Below the pieces are notes generated by a model, which was given only the letters and a program-made list of their open reading frames with translations, did not search any database and was not told where the DNA came from. A DNA stretch of 38,547 bases, from assembly GCA_014879535.1 (NCBI GenBank), contig JACSRX010000018.1, positions 1-38,547 of the forward strand, written 5' to 3'. Below are positions 5,136-20,709 of this stretch, piece after piece. Position 1 is the stretch's first letter; each line of letters opens with the position of its first letter. Source of the stretch: Chthoniobacterales bacterium (GTDB lineage Bacteria > Verrucomicrobiota > Verrucomicrobiia > Chthoniobacterales > JACTMZ01). Position numbers and translations under genes: made by a program.

Positions 5136-5642
5136 ATGTCAGGCAAGATTCTCATCGCCGTCCTGGCAGCCTCCGTCATCCTCGCCGGCGGCTGCACCCG
5201 CGTGCATGAGGAGGCCAAGCCACAGGACCGCGTGTCCGTCGCGCCGCCGGGAACCGTGCCCCCGAAACCGGTCCCGGCACGGACCCTGGCCAAGCCTTCA
5301 ACGCCGCCACGACCTCCCGAGGCCCCTCGCGAAGCCGCACCTCCACCGCGCGCCGACCTCCCCCCTCTCATCCATGCCGCCAGCGCATGGACCGACTATG
5401 GGAAGTCTCTCGTCGTGACCCGCGGCAGGCACCAACCCGTCCCGCTGTTCCGCCAAGCCATCGTGCTTGCTTCGGTCCGAGCCGCCGTCGCGGGTTCGCC
5501 CGCCGCCCCGCGCGTGGAGTTCCGCCGCGGGCGCCTCACGCTCACCTTCGGACGCGGCACAAATGCCGAAATCGCCGCCGCCATCAACCGCGCCATCGAC
5601 GTCCCCGAAGTCACCCGCTTGGAAATCCTCCTGCAGGGGTGA
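5136..5642 (+). CDS. Small proline-rich lipoprotein, unknown function
   Basis: A 168-residue protein with a lipoprotein signal (lipobox LAGGC, Cys about residue 20). A Pro/Ala/Arg-rich spacer (about 25-78) leads to a compact C-terminal domain (about 80-168) ending in AEIAAAINRAIDVPEVTRLEILLQG. I do not recognise the domain. The spacer suggests an outer-membrane lipoprotein reaching into the periplasm. It is divergent from the LysM lipoprotein gene, and shared envelope roles are plausible but unproven. No clear Shine-Dalgarno is seen upstream of the ATG. Confidence 0.7.
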   Translation: MSGKILIAVLAASVILAGGCTRVHEEAKPQDRVSVAPPGTVPPKPVPARTLAKPSTPPRPPEAPREAAPPPRADLPPLIHAASAWTDYGKSLVVTRGRHQPVPLFRQAIVLASVRAAVAGSPAAPRVEFRRGRLTLTFGRGTNAEIAAAINRAIDVPEVTRLEILLQG

Positions 5643-5748
5643 CAGGTCTCCGCTCCGCAGCGACATTTTGCAGGCATTGGGCTTGGATCATGACCAGGCT
5701 TGCGGAACCTGCCAAGGGGCCGCAGCCTACCCGACACCCCCCACCCCG

Positions 5749-7728
5749 ATGAATACCACCCGATTAGGCGCGACCATCCTCTGCAGCGCACTGGTCCTCA
5801 GTGCCGTTGCCCAGGAACAACCCAAACCCGCATCCGAGGCCACGAAGAAGGCCAACGCCGCCATGCTCGCCGAACTGCCGTTCGGCAACAAACAGGACTT
5901 CGAGGACGCCCATCGCGGCTTCATCGCCCCGCTGCCCGACGAGGGTGTCGTGAAGAACGACAAGGGCGACGTTGTTTACGATGCCGCCCAGTTTGAACTC
6001 CCCCTCGACAAAGCCGCGCCCGATACGGTGAACCCCAGTTTCTGGCGCATCTCGCAGCTCAACGGCATCAACGGACTCTTCAAGGTGGTCGATGGAATCT
6101 ATCAGGTGCGCGGCGCGGACCTGTCCGTCATCAGCTTCATCGAAGGCAAGGAGGGTGTGACCATCGTGGACCCGCTCGTTTCCGCGGAGACCGCGAAGAT
6201 GGCGCTCGACCTCTATGCAAAGCACCGCCCCGGGCACCCGGTGAAGGCGGTCATCTACACGCACAGCCATGTGGACCACTTCGGCGGCGTGCGCGGCATT
6301 GTCAGCGAGGAGGACGTGAAATCCGGCAAGGTGAAAATCTACGCGCCCACCGGCTTCACCGAGGAGGCCGTGAGCGAGAACGTCATGGCAGGCAACGCCA
6401 TGAGCCGCCGTGCCAGCTACATGTATGGCAATGTTGCCGACAAGGGCGAACAGGGTTCGCTCGGCACCGGCCTCGGACCCAGCACATCAAGCGGCAATGT
6501 CACGCTGCTGCTTCCCACCGATCTCATCACCACAACCGGTGAAAAGAAGACCATCGACGGCTTGGAATACCAGTTTCTCATGGCCCCCGGCAGCGAGGCC
6601 CCCGCGGAAATGATGTTCTTCATCCCGGAATTGAAAGCCTTCTGCCCCGCCGAGGATTGCACGCACACCCTGCACAATTTCTACACCCTGCGCGGCGCCA
6701 AGACGCGCGACTCGCGCAAATGGGTGACCTACCTCACCCAGGCCATCGACATGTGGGGCGCCGAGTGGGAGGTCATGTTCGCGCCGCACCACTGGCCCAC
6801 ATGGGGCAACGCCCGCATCACCGAGGCCGTGGAGAAATACCGCGACGCCTTCAAATACATCCACGACCAGTCCCTTCACCTCGCCAACCAAGGCTACACG
6901 ATGCTCGAAATCGCCGAGAAACTGAAACTCCCCCCGGAGCTCGCCGCCAATTGGGCCACCCGCGGCTACTACGGCTCCGTGAGCCACAACTCCAAGGCGG
7001 TTTACAACCTCTATCTCGGCTTCTTCAGCGGCAACCCCGCCGACCTCCACCCGCTCCCGCCCGCCGAGTCCGCCGGCAAATACGTCGATGCCATGGGCGG
7101 CGCCGACGCCGTGGTCGGAAAGGCGCAGAAGGCCTACGACGCCGGCGACTACCGCTGGGTCGCCGAACTGCTCAAGCAGGTCGTCTATGCCGATCCGGGG
7201 AACCGGAAGGCCCGCAACCTCCAGGCCGACGCCTTCGAACAACTCGGCTACCAGGCCGAGAGCGGCCCCTGGCGCAACTTCTACCTCTCCGGCGCGAAGG
7301 AACTCCGCGACGGCGTGAAAAAGACCGCCACGCCCGACACCGCCTCCGCCGACATCGAGCGCGCCATGTCGCTCGATCAGATCTTCGACTACCTTGCCAT
7401 CCGCCTCGACGGCCCGCGCGCCGCCGGCAGGGAGATGACCCTCAACTTCAAGTTCACCGACACGAACCAGGACTACACGCTGCAGCTCAAGAACGGCGTG
7501 CTCAACGCCTTCCCGAAACTCGCCGGCAAGCCGGACGCCACCTACACCCTCACGCGCGCGGACCTCGACAACGCCCTCCTCGGACAGTCAAAAATCGAAG
7601 ACCTCGTCAAGGAAGGCAGGGTCAAGGTCGAGGGCGAACCGGGGAAGGTGTCCGAACTGCTCGGTCTTCTCGACACCTTCGATTTCTGGTTCGACATCAT
7701 CACACCGAACCCGGACAAGGCGGGTTAG
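5749..7728 (+). CDS. Class III linear alkylsulfatase (SdsA1/YjcS/BDS1 family)
   Basis: A 660-residue exported enzyme that should hydrolyse primary alkyl sulfates (SDS-like) to alcohol and sulfate. The signal peptide is about 1-21. A metallo-beta-lactamase domain carries THSHVDHFGG (H172, H174, D176, H177), and AEDCTHTLHNFYTLRG and APHHWPTWGN supply further metal and active-site residues. A helical dimerisation region (about 385-530) and a SCP2-like C-terminal domain (about 535-655) complete the family architecture. The length matches SdsA1. The ATG at 5749 is chosen because it starts the signal peptide; the frame is open further upstream but overlaps the preceding gene. AEDCTH replaces the commoner AEDATH-type sequence. 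It may scavenge sulfate or carbon. Confidence 0.93.
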   Translation: MNTTRLGATILCSALVLSAVAQEQPKPASEATKKANAAMLAELPFGNKQDFEDAHRGFIAPLPDEGVVKNDKGDVVYDAAQFELPLDKAAPDTVNPSFWRISQLNGINGLFKVVDGIYQVRGADLSVISFIEGKEGVTIVDPLVSAETAKMALDLYAKHRPGHPVKAVIYTHSHVDHFGGVRGIVSEEDVKSGKVKIYAPTGFTEEAVSENVMAGNAMSRRASYMYGNVADKGEQGSLGTGLGPSTSSGNVTLLLPTDLITTTGEKKTIDGLEYQFLMAPGSEAPAEMMFFIPELKAFCPAEDCTHTLHNFYTLRGAKTRDSRKWVTYLTQAIDMWGAEWEVMFAPHHWPTWGNARITEAVEKYRDAFKYIHDQSLHLANQGYTMLEIAEKLKLPPELAANWATRGYYGSVSHNSKAVYNLYLGFFSGNPADLHPLPPAESAGKYVDAMGGADAVVGKAQKAYDAGDYRWVAELLKQVVYADPGNRKARNLQADAFEQLGYQAESGPWRNFYLSGAKELRDGVKKTATPDTASADIERAMSLDQIFDYLAIRLDGPRAAGREMTLNFKFTDTNQDYTLQLKNGVLNAFPKLAGKPDATYTLTRADLDNALLGQSKIEDLVKEGRVKVEGEPGKVSELLGLLDTFDFWFDIITPNPDKAG

Positions 7729-16946: not shown

Positions 16947-17225
16947 TGCGCAGGAGACGCTTTGAGTCGCTTGGCATACAATCTGCGACCATTCATCGGG
17001 GTCCAGCTTGCCATGCCTTCGCCAAATTCGGCAAGCATCGTGCCGGAAGAGACCGTCTCGATCGTCGTTTGATTCACTCCTCCGCCAGTGATGCGGTTTC
17101 CTCCGAATTCTGGGAACCCGGGCTCCAAGCATCGCCCGGGATCGAAGCTCAAGCTGAACCAACGCGGATACGCTGCATTTTCCTTCAAGTTTCAGGTCTC
17201 CTCCTTCATCCTTCCCGCGCACCCC
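16947..17225. other. Intergenic stretch upstream of the tRNA half-gene
   Basis: About 280 bases without a convincing gene. An 81-codon minus-strand frame (16943-17188, TTG start) is open but has no recognisable domain. If the element call is right, this is the original chromosomal flank and should contain the former promoter of the tRNA-Ile2 gene; I cannot pick out a clear one. Confidence 0.4.
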
Positions 17226-17263
17226 GGGGGTGTAGCTCAATGGTCAGAGCAGGCGGCTCATAA
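17226..17263 (+). repeat. Left attachment core: 5' half of tRNA-Ile2
   Basis: 38 bases identical to the first 38 bases of the intact tRNA at 19474, from the acceptor 5' strand through the anticodon loop. Identity stops abruptly on both sides. No 3' half follows, so it cannot make a functional tRNA. It is probably the ancestral 5' part of the gene cut off by integration. Confidence 0.85.
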
Positions 17264-17312
17264 GAGGAACAGCGCAATTTTCCTGAATTTTCCCGAGTCA
17301 TCCCACGTCTGC

Positions 17313-17343
17313 AAACCCGCATGAACACAGGCTTCGCGGGTTT
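17313..17343. repeat. Inverted repeat near the left attachment core
   Basis: AAACCCGC (17313-17320) and GCGGGTTT (17336-17343) form a perfect 8-bp stem with a 15-base loop, flanked by TCATCCC direct repeats. On the plus strand the stem ends in TTT, so it could also stop transcription reading through the tRNA fragment. Confidence 0.4.
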
Positions 17344-17389
17344 CCGTCATCATCCCGCGTCATCCCGAGTGCGCTCATTTTTCGGGGGG

Positions 17390-17412
17390 CGGGTTACAAA
17401 ATCGGGTTACAA
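17390..17412 (+). repeat. 23-bp direct repeat, left copy (candidate integrase arm site)
   Basis: Identical to 19398-19420. Each copy consists of two CGGGTTACAA units 13 bases apart. Same orientation at both ends of the element, 127 bases inside the left core. The paired placement fits arm-type integrase binding sites. Confidence 0.6.
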
Positions 17413-17600
17413 AGCAAAGCGGTTGTTCACCGCATGCTCGTTCCCCATGAGCTTCATTTCGGGCAGCGGTGCGACGCCGTGCCACTGACGGACGCACAAG
17501 GCCCGTGCCTCATCATGACGAACAGGGGCACTCATTGCCGCCCCCTGTAAACCCCCGGCTAGGGGGGAACCTACCCTAACGCGAAGCTCGGCTGACTGCG

Positions 17601-18041
17601 CTAGCGCTGAACTCTGGACAACGTGATCTGCTTGGAAATATGAGGCGACCAAAATGTCCAATATCTGATCCGCTCTTGCTCTGAATAGGGTGTGGTAATT
17701 GATTCAAATCCCACTGCTGATACCTCCAGAACCGCGCCTTCAAATCTCACTCCCCCTCGGAAGGTGCTCCAGCCTGCCGGAAAGTGAGCCCAAACTGACG
17801 CATTGCCGTCCTCATCTGTGGTGGATATTGCCTGTTTCGGCGGCGGAAACAGTTCGGGATGGTCAAGGGAACGGGCGGTTCGCAGAACCACGGTTGCGTT
17901 GGGTATTGGATCTCCAGAAGGTTCCATTACTCTGATGTTCCCTCGAACAACGATCATTCCGTCCGAAATCACGTTTGGAACTAGCAGCGAAAATACCGCA
18001 ATTGCAGCGATTATTCCGAGAACGAGGTAAAGGATGCGCAT
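17601..18041 (-). CDS. Element cargo: membrane-anchored carboxypeptidase-regulatory-like domain protein
   Basis: A 146-residue protein with an N-terminal hydrophobic anchor (about 1-22, YLVLGIIAAIAVFSLLVP). It has one beta-sandwich-like domain (about 32-140): GNIRVMEPSGDPIPNATVVL, then TTDEDGNASVWAHFPAGW and AVLEVSAVGFESI. This pattern, with a pre-Pro/Asn-Ala turn and a T-DxxG segment, is typical of CarboxypepD_reg/transthyretin-like folds found in surface proteins. The role is unknown. It is the only good candidate cargo gene and has a lower GC bias than the chromosome. Confidence 0.6.
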   Translation of the reverse strand: MRILYLVLGIIAAIAVFSLLVPNVISDGMIVVRGNIRVMEPSGDPIPNATVVLRTARSLDHPELFPPPKQAISTTDEDGNASVWAHFPAGWSTFRGGVRFEGAVLEVSAVGFESITTPYSEQERIRYWTFWSPHISKQITLSRVQR

Positions 18042-18188
18042 TTTGAATGCCTACCAGAGATCAGGCGAATAAAGCCGACGCTCGATCAAACCCAAAGGTT
18101 TACGGCTACGCTCATGGAACCACCTCCCCACGGCAAAAACAAGGCCTTGAGGTGCGGGATCTGTGGAGTTGTTGCACCTATAACAAGG

Positions 18189-18234
18189 TTAAGGGCCGGG
18201 CGCACCCGCTCCGCGGGTGCATCCCGGCACTTAA
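18189..18234. repeat. Long imperfect hairpin with extrahelical bases (attC-like)
   Basis: Three paired blocks, TTAAG/CTTAA, GCCGGG/CCCGGC and GCACCCGC/GCGGGTGC, give a 19-bp stem with a TCC loop. Unpaired bases fall between the blocks (18194, 18201, 18221-18222, 18229). A further CAAG/CTTG pair can form outside. This resembles folded integron attC sites, but the GTTRRRY/RYYYAAC boxes are not both present. It lies in the 277-base gap between the integrase and the cargo gene, in which I see no gene. Confidence 0.5.
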
Positions 18235-18318
18235 TCACTTGGGATTCCGTGAAGCACATGCTCCGAGGCCACCACGCAAGGCTGGCCAGCATTCCCGGCT
18301 CAAGGCCATGAGATCGCA

Positions 18319-19383
18319 TCACTCCCCGCCCATGCGGTCCGCCATTTTCTGCGAATGCTCACGGCTCAGGACGTGGGCGTAGGTCCGCAGGAGCAGCGCA
18401 CCGCCATCGACATGCCCTTGCCAGCGGGAAACCGTCTGGACGTCCACCCCGCGCATGAGCGCCCGCGTGATGAACATCCGGCGCAGGCTGCGAAGCGTGA
18501 AATGCGGGAACCCCAGACGACGGCACGCGGCCTCGATGCCCTTCTTGCAGTTGTCGAAGGCGAAGAGCCTCGCCTCCGGTTCCTGGGCAGCCGATGCCAG
18601 GCGCCTTTTCACGATGGGCAGCGCGTTCGGGTAGATCGGCACGGAAAACCCGGTGCTTGTCTTGAGCCGGAAGCACGTCATGAGCTTCCCCGGCAGGTCG
18701 ATGTCGCAGCGACGCAGCCCCGAGATTTCCGCCTGCCCGAGCCCGGCCTCCCCGGCCATCTCCACGTAGTCCGCCGTTTCCTCCTGCCCGTGCGGGTTGT
18801 GGCGCTCCGGATCGCGCAGATCGGCGACAATGGCGCGGAATTGCTCGTAAGTCGGCGTGAGACGGATCGGCTTTCCCCGCTTGCGGTATTTGATACCGAC
18901 CACGGGTGAGACGGCCAGTTCCCGGTCGTTGACGGCCTGATCGAACATCGCACGGACCGCAACGAGGTATTCGTTGACCGTGGAGCCCGCCTTGTCCTTG
19001 TAGTTGGCGGCCCACGTCTCGATGTGCGAGCGCCGGATTTTGGCCAGCTCGCGCGGGGCACCCTTGGGCCAATCCTTCAACAGCCTGCGGATGGCATGGC
19101 GCTTGTGGGTGACGGTGGAGGGACGGCCGCGGACGGTTTCCAAGTAGCGGGCGGCCATGTCATCCAGCGTCAGCTTGGAGCGCACGGCCGCGGAAATCTC
19201 CAGATCGGTGCGGAATTGCCTCAGCATCCGACGGGCCACCGCCAGATCGTTGGTTTCCAACGAACGGCGGATTTGCTTCCCCGCCACCTTCACCAGTGTG
19301 TAATACTTGGCGCCCTTGTAGCGATAAAGGCATGGCCCGACCTTCACCCACTCTGATTTCGGCGGTTTCTCGCCCGGTTGCAT
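18319..19383 (-). CDS. Tyrosine-type site-specific integrase
   Basis: A 354-residue recombinase. The N-terminal part (about 10-60) is an arm-binding-like region with YRYKGAKYYTL; the SAM-like core-binding domain is about 70-155; the catalytic domain is about 180-354. The beta-hairpin lysine (RLKTSTGFSVPI), the second Arg (RSLRRMF), GH in WQGHVDGGALLL and the nucleophile in RTYAHV (Tyr about 335) are present. However, the first catalytic Arg position reads GLGQAE instead of GLRxxE, and the His of HxLRH is Arg. ATG 19383 is preferred over 19392 because an AGGA-type ribosome site lies 8 bases upstream. The gene points leftward, with its promoter beside the right end. Confidence 0.9.
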   Translation of the reverse strand: MQPGEKPPKSEWVKVGPCLYRYKGAKYYTLVKVAGKQIRRSLETNDLAVARRMLRQFRTDLEISAAVRSKLTLDDMAARYLETVRGRPSTVTHKRHAIRRLLKDWPKGAPRELAKIRRSHIETWAANYKDKAGSTVNEYLVAVRAMFDQAVNDRELAVSPVVGIKYRKRGKPIRLTPTYEQFRAIVADLRDPERHNPHGQEETADYVEMAGEAGLGQAEISGLRRCDIDLPGKLMTCFRLKTSTGFSVPIYPNALPIVKRRLASAAQEPEARLFAFDNCKKGIEAACRRLGFPHFTLRSLRRMFITRALMRGVDVQTVSRWQGHVDGGALLLRTYAHVLSREHSQKMADRMGGE

Positions 19384-19397
19384 GGGGTGCATCCTAC

Positions 19398-19420
19398 CGG
19401 GTTACAAAATCGGGTTACAA
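19398..19420 (+). repeat. 23-bp direct repeat, right copy, abutting the integrase start
   Basis: Identical to 17390-17412. It ends about 50 bases from the right tRNA core and starts 15 bases from the integrase ATG, next to its ribosome site. It may be both an integrase arm site and an operator for integrase expression. Confidence 0.6.
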
Positions 19421-19429
19421 CGCCATTTT

Positions 19430-19458
19430 TTGCTCGAATAAACTTTCTGCAATATCTT
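19430..19458 (+). promoter_or_regulatory. Candidate element-borne promoter for tRNA-Ile2
   Basis: TTGCTC (19430-19435) and TATCTT (19453-19458) are 17 bases apart in AT-rich DNA, about 15 bases before the tRNA. The -35 match is weak (3/6) and the -10 moderate (4/6). If real, the element now drives an essential host tRNA. Confidence 0.35.
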
Positions 19459-19473
19459 TGAAACAAATAACTT

Positions 19474-19549
19474 GGGGGTGTAGCTCAATGGTCAGAGCAG
19501 GCGGCTCATAATCGCTTGGTTCACGGTTCGAGTCCGTGCGCCCCCACCA
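19474..19549 (+). tRNA. tRNA-Ile2 (CAU, lysidine type)
   Basis: A complete 76-nt cloverleaf with encoded CCA. The acceptor stem GGGGGTG/CGCCCCC has one G-U pair, the D stem is GCTC/GAGC, the loop is CTCATAA with anticodon CAT, and the T arm is CACGG/CCGTG. The anticodon arm and variable region closely match E. coli tRNA-Ile2 (GGCG-CTCATAATCGCTTGGT), so it is probably the AUA-reading isoleucine tRNA modified by TilS, not a methionine tRNA. The first 38 bases are duplicated at 17226. It ends 16 bases before yajQ. Confidence 0.88.
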
Positions 19550-19565
19550 ACTCCATTCCCATCCC

Positions 19566-20054
19566 ATGCCCACATTCGACATCGTCTCCGAAGTTGACCG
19601 TCAGGAAATCCTCAATGCCATCGACCAGGCGAAGCGCGAGCTGGCCACGCGGTTCGATTTCAAGGGGTCCGAGGCCAAGATGGAACTTGAGAAGGACGGC
19701 AACCTGCGCCTCACGGCAGAGGATGCCTCGCGTCTCAAGGGGCTGCGCGAAATCGTCATCAACAAACTCGCCAAGCGCAACGTGGACCTCCGCAATGTTG
19801 ATCAGAAGGAAGCCGAAATCTCCCCGCTCGGCCATGCCCGCCAGCTCATTGTCTTCAAACAGGGACTCGAAGGCGACAAGGCCAAGGAAATTTCCAAGTT
19901 CCTCAAGGCGTCCGGCCTGAAAATCCAATCCACGCTGCAGGACCGCCAGATCCGCGTGACCGGGAAGAAGCGCGATGACCTGCAGGAAGCCATCGGCGCC
20001 CTCCGCGCCAAGGATTTCGGCGTCGCCCTCAACTACACAAACTTCCGCGACTGA
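19566..20054 (+). CDS. YajQ family nucleotide-binding protein
   Basis: A 162-residue protein matching YajQ along its length: PTFDIVSEVDRQEILNAIDQ, ATRFDFKGSEAKM, KRNVDLRNVD, KQGLEGDKAKEISKF, IQSTLQDRQIRVTGKKRDDLQ and DFGVALNYTNFRD. Family members have two RNP-like folds and bind nucleic acid, and some bind cyclic-di-GMP. The role here is not known. Start ATG 19566 matches the conserved MPTFDIVSE N terminus. The gene converges with the toxin gene at a 6-base gap. Confidence 0.95.
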   Translation: MPTFDIVSEVDRQEILNAIDQAKRELATRFDFKGSEAKMELEKDGNLRLTAEDASRLKGLREIVINKLAKRNVDLRNVDQKEAEISPLGHARQLIVFKQGLEGDKAKEISKFLKASGLKIQSTLQDRQIRVTGKKRDDLQEAIGALRAKDFGVALNYTNFRD

Positions 20055-20060
20055 ACGCCG

Positions 20061-20438
20061 TCAGGCCTGGAGGACCGGAACCCCGTAGGCGGCGGCGAAG
20101 CGGTCCGCCGTCACGAACTGCAATCCTTCGCTCATGGCTTGGGCGATGAGCAGGCGGTCGAACGGATCACGATGATGCCAAGGCAACCTCGCGGCCGTCA
20201 TGCCGTGGTGGCGCTTGATGGGGAGATCGATAAACCCGGCTTCGTCAAGAGCCTCCAGCCAATCATCGGGCAGCACCAGTTTGCCGCTGGCCCGCTTTAT
20301 CTCCAGCTCCCAAACGGACGCCGTGCTGACAAACACCACATTCGCGGGTGACGCAATCTCCGTGGCGGCTGGTCCGGCAAGTTTGCCCGGCTCCAGCAGC
20401 GCCCACAGGAGAACGTGCGAATCAAGGAGAAGTCTCAC
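20061..20438 (-). CDS. PIN-domain toxin (VapC-like)
   Basis: A 125-residue PIN-domain ribonuclease toxin with a GTG start. The acidic active-site residues are in place: D6 (LLLDSHVLLW), E44 (SVWELEIK), D91/D94 (HRDPFDRLL) and D112 (TADRF). The DSHVLLWALLE start and HHRDPFDRLLIAQA motif are typical of type II toxins paired with Phd/YefM antitoxins. The antitoxin gene ends 4 bases upstream. Such toxins usually cleave tRNA or other RNA; the target is unknown. Confidence 0.92.
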   Translation of the reverse strand: MRLLLDSHVLLWALLEPGKLAGPAATEIASPANVVFVSTASVWELEIKRASGKLVLPDDWLEALDEAGFIDLPIKRHHGMTAARLPWHHRDPFDRLLIAQAMSEGLQFVTADRFAAAYGVPVLQA

Positions 20439-20442
20439 GCGT

Positions 20443-20709
20443 TTACTCGGCGACCTTCGGAGAACGCACAGATTCTTCGGAGCCGTAAAAGGTCTCCTCA
20501 AGCTCGGGATCGGCATCCCAACACCCGGGCATTTCCTTGCCCTTGCCCGCCAGAAGACCCAGCGGACGCACCCCTCTTGGAGCCCCAATCTTCGCAAGCT
20601 GGACCATGGGTTTGCCCGCCTTGGCCACAATCACGGTTTCGCCCCCCAACACTTCCTCCACAAGCTTGGAGAGGTGCGTCTTGGCTTCGTGGATGTTCAC
20701 GATTTTCAC
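20443..20709 (-). CDS. Phd/YefM-type antitoxin
   Basis: An 88-residue antitoxin with a GTG start. The N-terminal DNA-binding part KIVNIHEAKTHLSKLVEEVL and ETVIVAKAGKPMVQLAKI fit the Phd/YefM fold. The C-terminal tail (FYGSEES) should wrap the toxin. It lies just upstream of the PIN toxin and 24 bases downstream of pyrF on the same strand. Two 8-base direct repeats immediately upstream may be its operator. Confidence 0.9.
   Translation of the reverse strand: MKIVNIHEAKTHLSKLVEEVLGGETVIVAKAGKPMVQLAKIGAPRGVRPLGLLAGKGKEMPGCWDADPELEETFYGSEESVRSPKVAE

Follow-up and report, generated by a model that had tools for sequence, protein, structure and literature searches.

The window analyzed here, a 38,547-bp stretch of DNA (contig JACSRX010000018.1 of assembly GCA_014879535.1, from a Chthoniobacterales bacterium), carries at positions 17264-19511 what we regard, with a probability of about 0.93, as a 2.2-kb tyrosine-integrase element that has captured the 5′ half of a tRNA gene and displaced the host half together with its leader, and that belongs to a family residing mainly in Verrucomicrobiota. 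This reading is built on observed boundaries, empty sites, gene content, family anatomy and active-site substitutions. In the proposed mechanism, an attP carrying the 5′ half of the tRNA, from its start to the anticodon loop, would recombine with the chromosomal copy of the gene at its anticodon loop; the 5′ half of the element would thereby be joined to the 3′ half of the host, restoring the tRNA, and the host 5′ half and leader would be shifted 2248 bp upstream. The restored tRNA would then be transcribed from an element-borne intergenic region of approximately 80 bp, located between the divergent integrase gene (int) and tRNA gene and including tandem arm-type sites. Members of the integrase family would use the anticodon loop as their crossover point in many tRNAs and capture 5′ halves for the most part, with the halves switched several times.

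The duplicated tRNA half and its empty sites

The window is contig 89 of an assembly of 3.17 Mb (97 contigs, 96% complete). The 38-mer GGGGGTGTAGCTCAATGGTCAGAGCAGGCGGCTCATAA is present in two exact copies, at 17226-17263 and 19474-19511 (0 mismatches), and no third copy exists in the assembly when up to three mismatches are allowed. Given that the runner-up match to the tRNA 5′ half in the same DNA has 15 mismatches in 34 positions (12-18 across the loci tested), the exact copy is not a product of chance. The 3′ half is present only once in the window, the best other match having 12/34 mismatches, and an ordinary 3′ capture misread as a 5′ one was rejected because there is no 3′ fragment. The earlier note on this DNA had reported that the first 38 bases of the tRNA recur 2248 bp upstream with no duplicated 3′ half, and both statements are borne out, the former in start, end and spacing. 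Crossover probably took place within the anticodon loop (19505-19511). At the left core, the position taken by GAGGAACAGCGC in the window is occupied by GAGGAAACGG in a related element of Spartobacteria LR76.

With yajQ used as the anchor to find the locus in relatives, an empty site was recovered in 10 of 10 same-genus genomes, in each of which yajQ is directly preceded by a CAT tRNA with a conserved leader of its own. The 60 bp to the left of the displaced fragment in the window match this leader at 61-77% identity (shuffled maximum, 48-57%), whereas the 60 bp that now precede the intact tRNA reach 38-46%, which is the shuffled level. It follows that the original leader has been displaced and replaced. 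The comparison with relatives lacking the insert had been proposed in the earlier note, along with the claims that an integrative element carries the tRNA 5′ half and that the region upstream of the tRNA is new; the contiguous sites in all ten genomes, the low identity of the present leader, and the tyrosine integrase and matching arm-type repeats between the two copies uphold both. A second empty-site case is provided by the Ile2 element of Spartobacteria LR76, the site of which is empty in two congeners.

Table 1. Coordinates of the element, its attachment sites and its surroundings in the window
Feature	Position	Strand	Observation
Ancestral tRNA leader/promoter region, stranded beyond the element	17166..17225	+	61-77% identity to empty-site leader, 10/10 congeners
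Displaced 5′ half of host tRNA (positions 1-38), left attachment site	17226..17263	+	Identical to 19474-19511
Element side of left core site, replacing the 3′ strand of the anticodon stem	17264..17275	+	GAGGAACAGCGC, from sequence
Left arm-type site (putative), tandem CGGGTTACAAAATCGGGTTACAA	17390..17415	+	25/26 identical to 19398-19423
146-aa open reading frame with N-terminal hydrophobic stretch, possible cargo	17601..18041	-	Weak Ig-like/CarboxypepD_reg match, Pfam below cut-off
Tyrosine integrase, 357 aa	18319..19392	-	PF00589 31.9 bits and PF02899 24.6 bits, both above cut-off
Right arm-type site (putative), tandem CGGGTTACAAAATCGGGTTACAA	19398..19423	+	Copy of 17390-17415
Element-borne tRNA leader, putative replacement-promoter site	19424..19473	+	AT-rich family leaders; weak positioned motif in relatives
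Restored tRNA(CAT), probably Ile2	19474..19549	+	19474-19511, duplicated block; 19512-19549, host sequence
yajQ (DUF520), conserved right-hand neighbor	19566..20054	+	PF04461 E 6e-54; 10/10 congeners

The layout of the 26-bp tandem repeats suggests that they function as arm sites. Closely similar sites are found at both ends of the LR76 element, and across the clade an arm-type motif, with an information content of 11.8 bits (shuffles, 6.8-6.9), in most cases stops 52-56 nt short of the tRNA. The 146-aa open reading frame (ORF) has no PHROG or NCBIfam match. Neither this ORF nor int was identified as a phage structural gene, the other short ORFs having not been searched, and the element does not qualify as a prophage. 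Beyond the element, two ORFs beside yajQ (20061-20709, minus strand), one PIN-domain-like and one for a Phd-like antitoxin, resemble a toxin-antitoxin pair, judging from their translations only.

The integrase, its active site and its family

The gene for the integrase starts 81 bp from the tRNA and is transcribed divergently, and its product matches the PHROG integrase category (E 3e-40). An AlphaFold model (pLDDT 91) has lambda Int and Tn1549 Int as its closest solved folds, and arm-binding, core-binding and catalytic domains can all be assigned, with a predicted N-terminus of β-sheet and helix and a full-length match to lambda Int. In alignments, the active site reads G219/E222, R242-x-K244, R301xxR304, H327 and Y338, departing from the canonical RKHRH plus Y in having G219 for Arg I, a residue that aligns with Arg I of Tn1549 Int, and R301 for the first His. 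The same state, G-E/R-K/R-R/H/Y, is present in 49 of the 51 rows of the clade that holds the window integrase (support 99), and relatives outside it show R-E / x-K / HxxR. Thus, the 51-row clade has lost Arg I, has gained an Arg at position −2 relative to the catalytic Lys, and has Arg for His in the HxxR motif. On the basis of this conservation, we propose that the role of Arg I may have moved to R242.

Related integrases were collected from relatives, named public genomes, viral contigs, general Pfam matches in relatives, and a 289-genome sample of the phylum; none was found at E 1e-10 in collections of phage and plasmid records. In the usual geometry of the family, int starts approximately 40-150 bp from the 5′ end of the tRNA and is divergent from it. 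Exact displaced 5′ halves mark 15 elements including that of the window, varying from 2.2 to about 66 kb and distributed over seven tRNA isotypes, and in all cases the 5′-half block stops at the 3′ edge of the anticodon loop or slightly beyond it (tRNA positions 37-41). Seven of these elements are situated at the Ile2 tRNA of LR76 and at Val(CAC), Val(TAC), Arg(CCT), Val(TAC), Arg(CCG) and Ala(CGC) tRNAs, and their displaced halves span positions 1-38 (LR76 Ile2), 1-37 (Val), 1-40 (Val), 1-39 (Arg), 1-41 (Val), 1-41 (Arg) and 1-38 (Ala); those in other families span 1-39 (Leu), 1-40 (CAT) and 1-41 (CAT). Larger elements of about 28-66 kb with displaced 5′ halves are situated at Ala, Arg(TCT), Thr and Phe tRNAs. 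Cargo varies as well: the LR76 element, 4.3 kb long (L053:961-5272), encodes, beside the integrase, a rolling-circle replication protein of the G2P type along with an HTH_17 protein, and is possibly a replicating mini-element, and a terminase large subunit is carried by another member.

Capture of the other half also occurs. In three relatives with canonical active sites, the tRNA is oppositely oriented and the displaced halves are 3′ ones starting at position 30-32 (Arg 30-77, Val 31 onward, Leu 32-81). At least seven changes between 5′ and 3′ facing are required on a 92-row tree, which was obtained by a quick search and has provisional deep branches, and in which facing was labeled by geometry alone at loci where no displaced fragment was found. 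Because the anticodon stem-loop is nearly a palindrome, either half could in principle sit in attP. Two simpler rules were rejected: 5′ capture is not limited to the clade lacking Arg I, since canonical relatives show it too and some of them show 3′ capture, and not all members are of the 5′ type, since loci L062 and L101 and 10 loci of the phylum sample face the opposite way.

Several further loci deserve mention. On the minus strand of L312, two displaced 5′ fragments of one CAT tRNA lie approximately 200 bp apart (9106 and 9303), suggesting tandem or successive integrations. At L112 (1797-1827, minus strand) there is a 3′ fragment (47-77) of a tRNA-Pro(GGG) whose other side has a 5′-facing integrase, and this tRNA may be used by elements of both kinds. 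Near-identical integrases at L098 and L274, from a Verrucomicrobiaceae metagenome-assembled genome and another genome, have no tRNA seen nearby, and their near relative L101 is located at a tRNA-Pro; a different target or a truncated contig is perhaps the explanation. Finally, contig 90 of genome G000 holds roughly a dozen tRNA genes, most of them with low scores, densely packed within about 2.2 kb (5401-7633) and resembling a phage-type tRNA array.

The tRNA, its new leader and the alternatives

Ile2 is the best guess for the identity of the tRNA(CAT), which scores 38 in alignment with E. coli ileX, 28 with elongator Met and 19 with initiator Met. A tilS gene is present in the genome. Of the three further CAT tRNAs in the genome, the one on contig 42 also leans to Ile2, and therefore the window tRNA need not be the sole reader of AUA. 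The earlier claim that this tRNA is needed for AUA is likely, given the ileX-like sequence and tilS, but the contig 42 tRNA may be redundant with it. Because int points away from the tRNA, transcription of the tRNA would have to be supplied by the element, and a putative takeover of the promoter is strongly implied.

A number of observations weigh against the reading of a 5′-capturing, promoter-supplying and working element. A scan of the window leader revealed no consensus sigma-70 promoter, and the motif found approximately 5-25 nt before the tRNA in many family leaders is weak (8.5 bits, versus 6.4-6.7 in shuffles). No excisionase was recognized in the window element, and Arg I, normally conserved, is missing, so that the integrase could be inactive. 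Most of the family loci come from metagenome assemblies. Within the clade, L062 and L101 are found on the 3′ side of a tRNA-Pro(CGG), and no displaced fragment was seen in the sequence covered; no tRNA is seen near 11 members. An Rfam search of the loci without a visible tRNA returned nothing useful beyond an incomplete tRNA at the L082 edge.

Two alternatives would remove the element altogether. In one, the tRNA 5′ half was simply duplicated locally, the copies being separated by unrelated DNA and the integrase present by coincidence. This would account for a repeat covering the first 38 bases only, but it is hard to reconcile with the contiguous empty sites in ten congeners, with end repeats that match those of an element in another family, and with the same anatomy in 14 other elements with related integrases, mostly at other tRNAs; it was rejected on the empty sites and the independent LR76 case and is extremely improbable. 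Equally improbable is an assembly or binning artefact in which two contigs were fused at the tRNA repeat: the window does come from a 97-contig assembly, yet the repeat is just 38 bp, the left flank is the tRNA leader of the congeners themselves, and the anatomy is repeated in independent genomes, including LR76, where it lies in a contig of 1.56 Mb.

The other two alternatives accept an integration and question its consequences. The element might be a dead remnant, once mobile, with an integrase disabled by the loss of catalytic Arg I, as the Gly at position 219 and the minimal content without a recognizable excisionase would suggest. Against this, the change has become fixed throughout the 51-row clade, as have R242 and R301, with almost every reading frame still open; clade members occupy many tRNAs across many genera and have intact att pairs; and a working relocated Arg I is known in the CTnDOT integrase (PMC8138268). 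We consider such a remnant quite unlikely, and the element is presumed to be active today. It might also be that the element has no promoter and that the tRNA is read through from another part of the element or from its former leader, 2.2 kb distant. The failure to find a consensus promoter upstream of the tRNA speaks for this, but int is oriented away from the tRNA, transcription from the old leader would need to cross the whole element, and the leaders of the family, besides their weak positioned motif, are AT-rich (75-nt leaders average a GC content of 0.41, versus 0.57 for the loci). Readthrough is therefore judged very unlikely, and an element that has captured the tRNA 5′ half and supplies a new leader is the preferred reading.

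Comparison with known systems

In textbook cases of tRNA targeting, the element captures the 3′ half and the tRNA stays under the host promoter. Capture of the 5′ half is in itself rare but known: in the Islander database, 5′ tDNA fragments mark 159 of 3,919 islands, a 4% minority (PMC4383910), and tRNA-targeting islands with a 5′ tDNA fragment were described by Zhao and Williams in 2002, as cited in PMC6563490. Accordingly, the earlier description of this capture as the reverse of the usual is right in that the 5′ half is taken and 3′ capture dominates, with the qualification that such cases are already documented, in Islander islands and in pTN3-like elements. Like the 5′-fragment islands of Islander, the window element has a tyrosine integrase (PF00589 above cut-off) inside, and an intact tRNA and a terminal tRNA fragment in the same orientation on either side; its 2248 bp exceed the required 2 kb, and the fragment displaced upstream is a 5′ one with no 3′ counterpart, as in the 5′-half-capturing class. 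Crossover in the anticodon loop is likewise a known sublocation among tRNA-targeting islands (PMC4383910). In contrast, no integrase family is known to be singled out for the 5′ set there, whereas the related integrases here are mostly 5′-capturing over many isotypes.

In Thermococcales, attB of the pTN3-like integrases is the tRNA 5′ half, and the restored tRNA is driven by the integrase promoter (PMC8371274). By description, the window element is alike in capturing the 5′ half, but these "suicidal" integrases are split by integration, whereas the window int is intact, lies outside attP and is divergent from the tRNA, its open frame (18319-19392) being wholly within the element. In islands targeting dusA, compared by description, element sequence likewise takes the place of the leader and 5′ end of a conserved gene, which is protein-coding, unlike the tRNA target of the window (PMC4482086). 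In the tRNA-dependent lysogeny of actinobacteriophages, as here, integration takes place in a host tRNA gene and tRNA supply comes to depend on element DNA; there, the phage leaves the host tRNA unreconstructed and brings a complete tRNA gene of its own, whereas the window tRNA is rebuilt intact at 19474-19549 and there is no other tRNA in the element (PMC10865867). When the 3′-capturing ICEKp1 is integrated, its int is transcribed together with the host tRNA (PMC13023037). Such co-transcription is impossible with a divergent tRNA, and therefore a different control of int is predicted for the window element. Given that the arm sites share the approximately 80-bp intergenic region with the presumed tRNA promoter, the supply of the AUA-reading tRNA could be modulated by integrase binding or by excision, which would give the element control over decoding in the host; this is an unlikely scenario, but if true, the coupling of host and element would run opposite to that in 3′-capturing elements such as ICEKp1.

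A bacterial integrase family that is mostly 5′-capturing across tRNAs, with switches of halves and a change in the active site, was not found in the literature searched, many subscription papers lying outside its reach, so that novelty is not proven. Such a family supplies the leader of a tRNA gene in each host, and with sister elements that share a crossover point and carry either half, the question of why 3′ capture dominates becomes testable. With respect to the active site, the closest parallels are IntCTnDOT, in which Arg I is missing and its role is filled by an Arg further downstream, and the IntDes subgroup, in which the Arg is shifted and the first His is also substituted (PMC8138268). 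The window integrase likewise lacks Arg I at the usual place; its own features in this comparison are R242, at −2 from the catalytic Lys, and the Arg in place of the His of HxxR. The joint loss of Arg I, gain of R242 and change of His to Arg, with canonical sister groups at hand, thus offer a natural experiment in the evolution of recombinase active sites.
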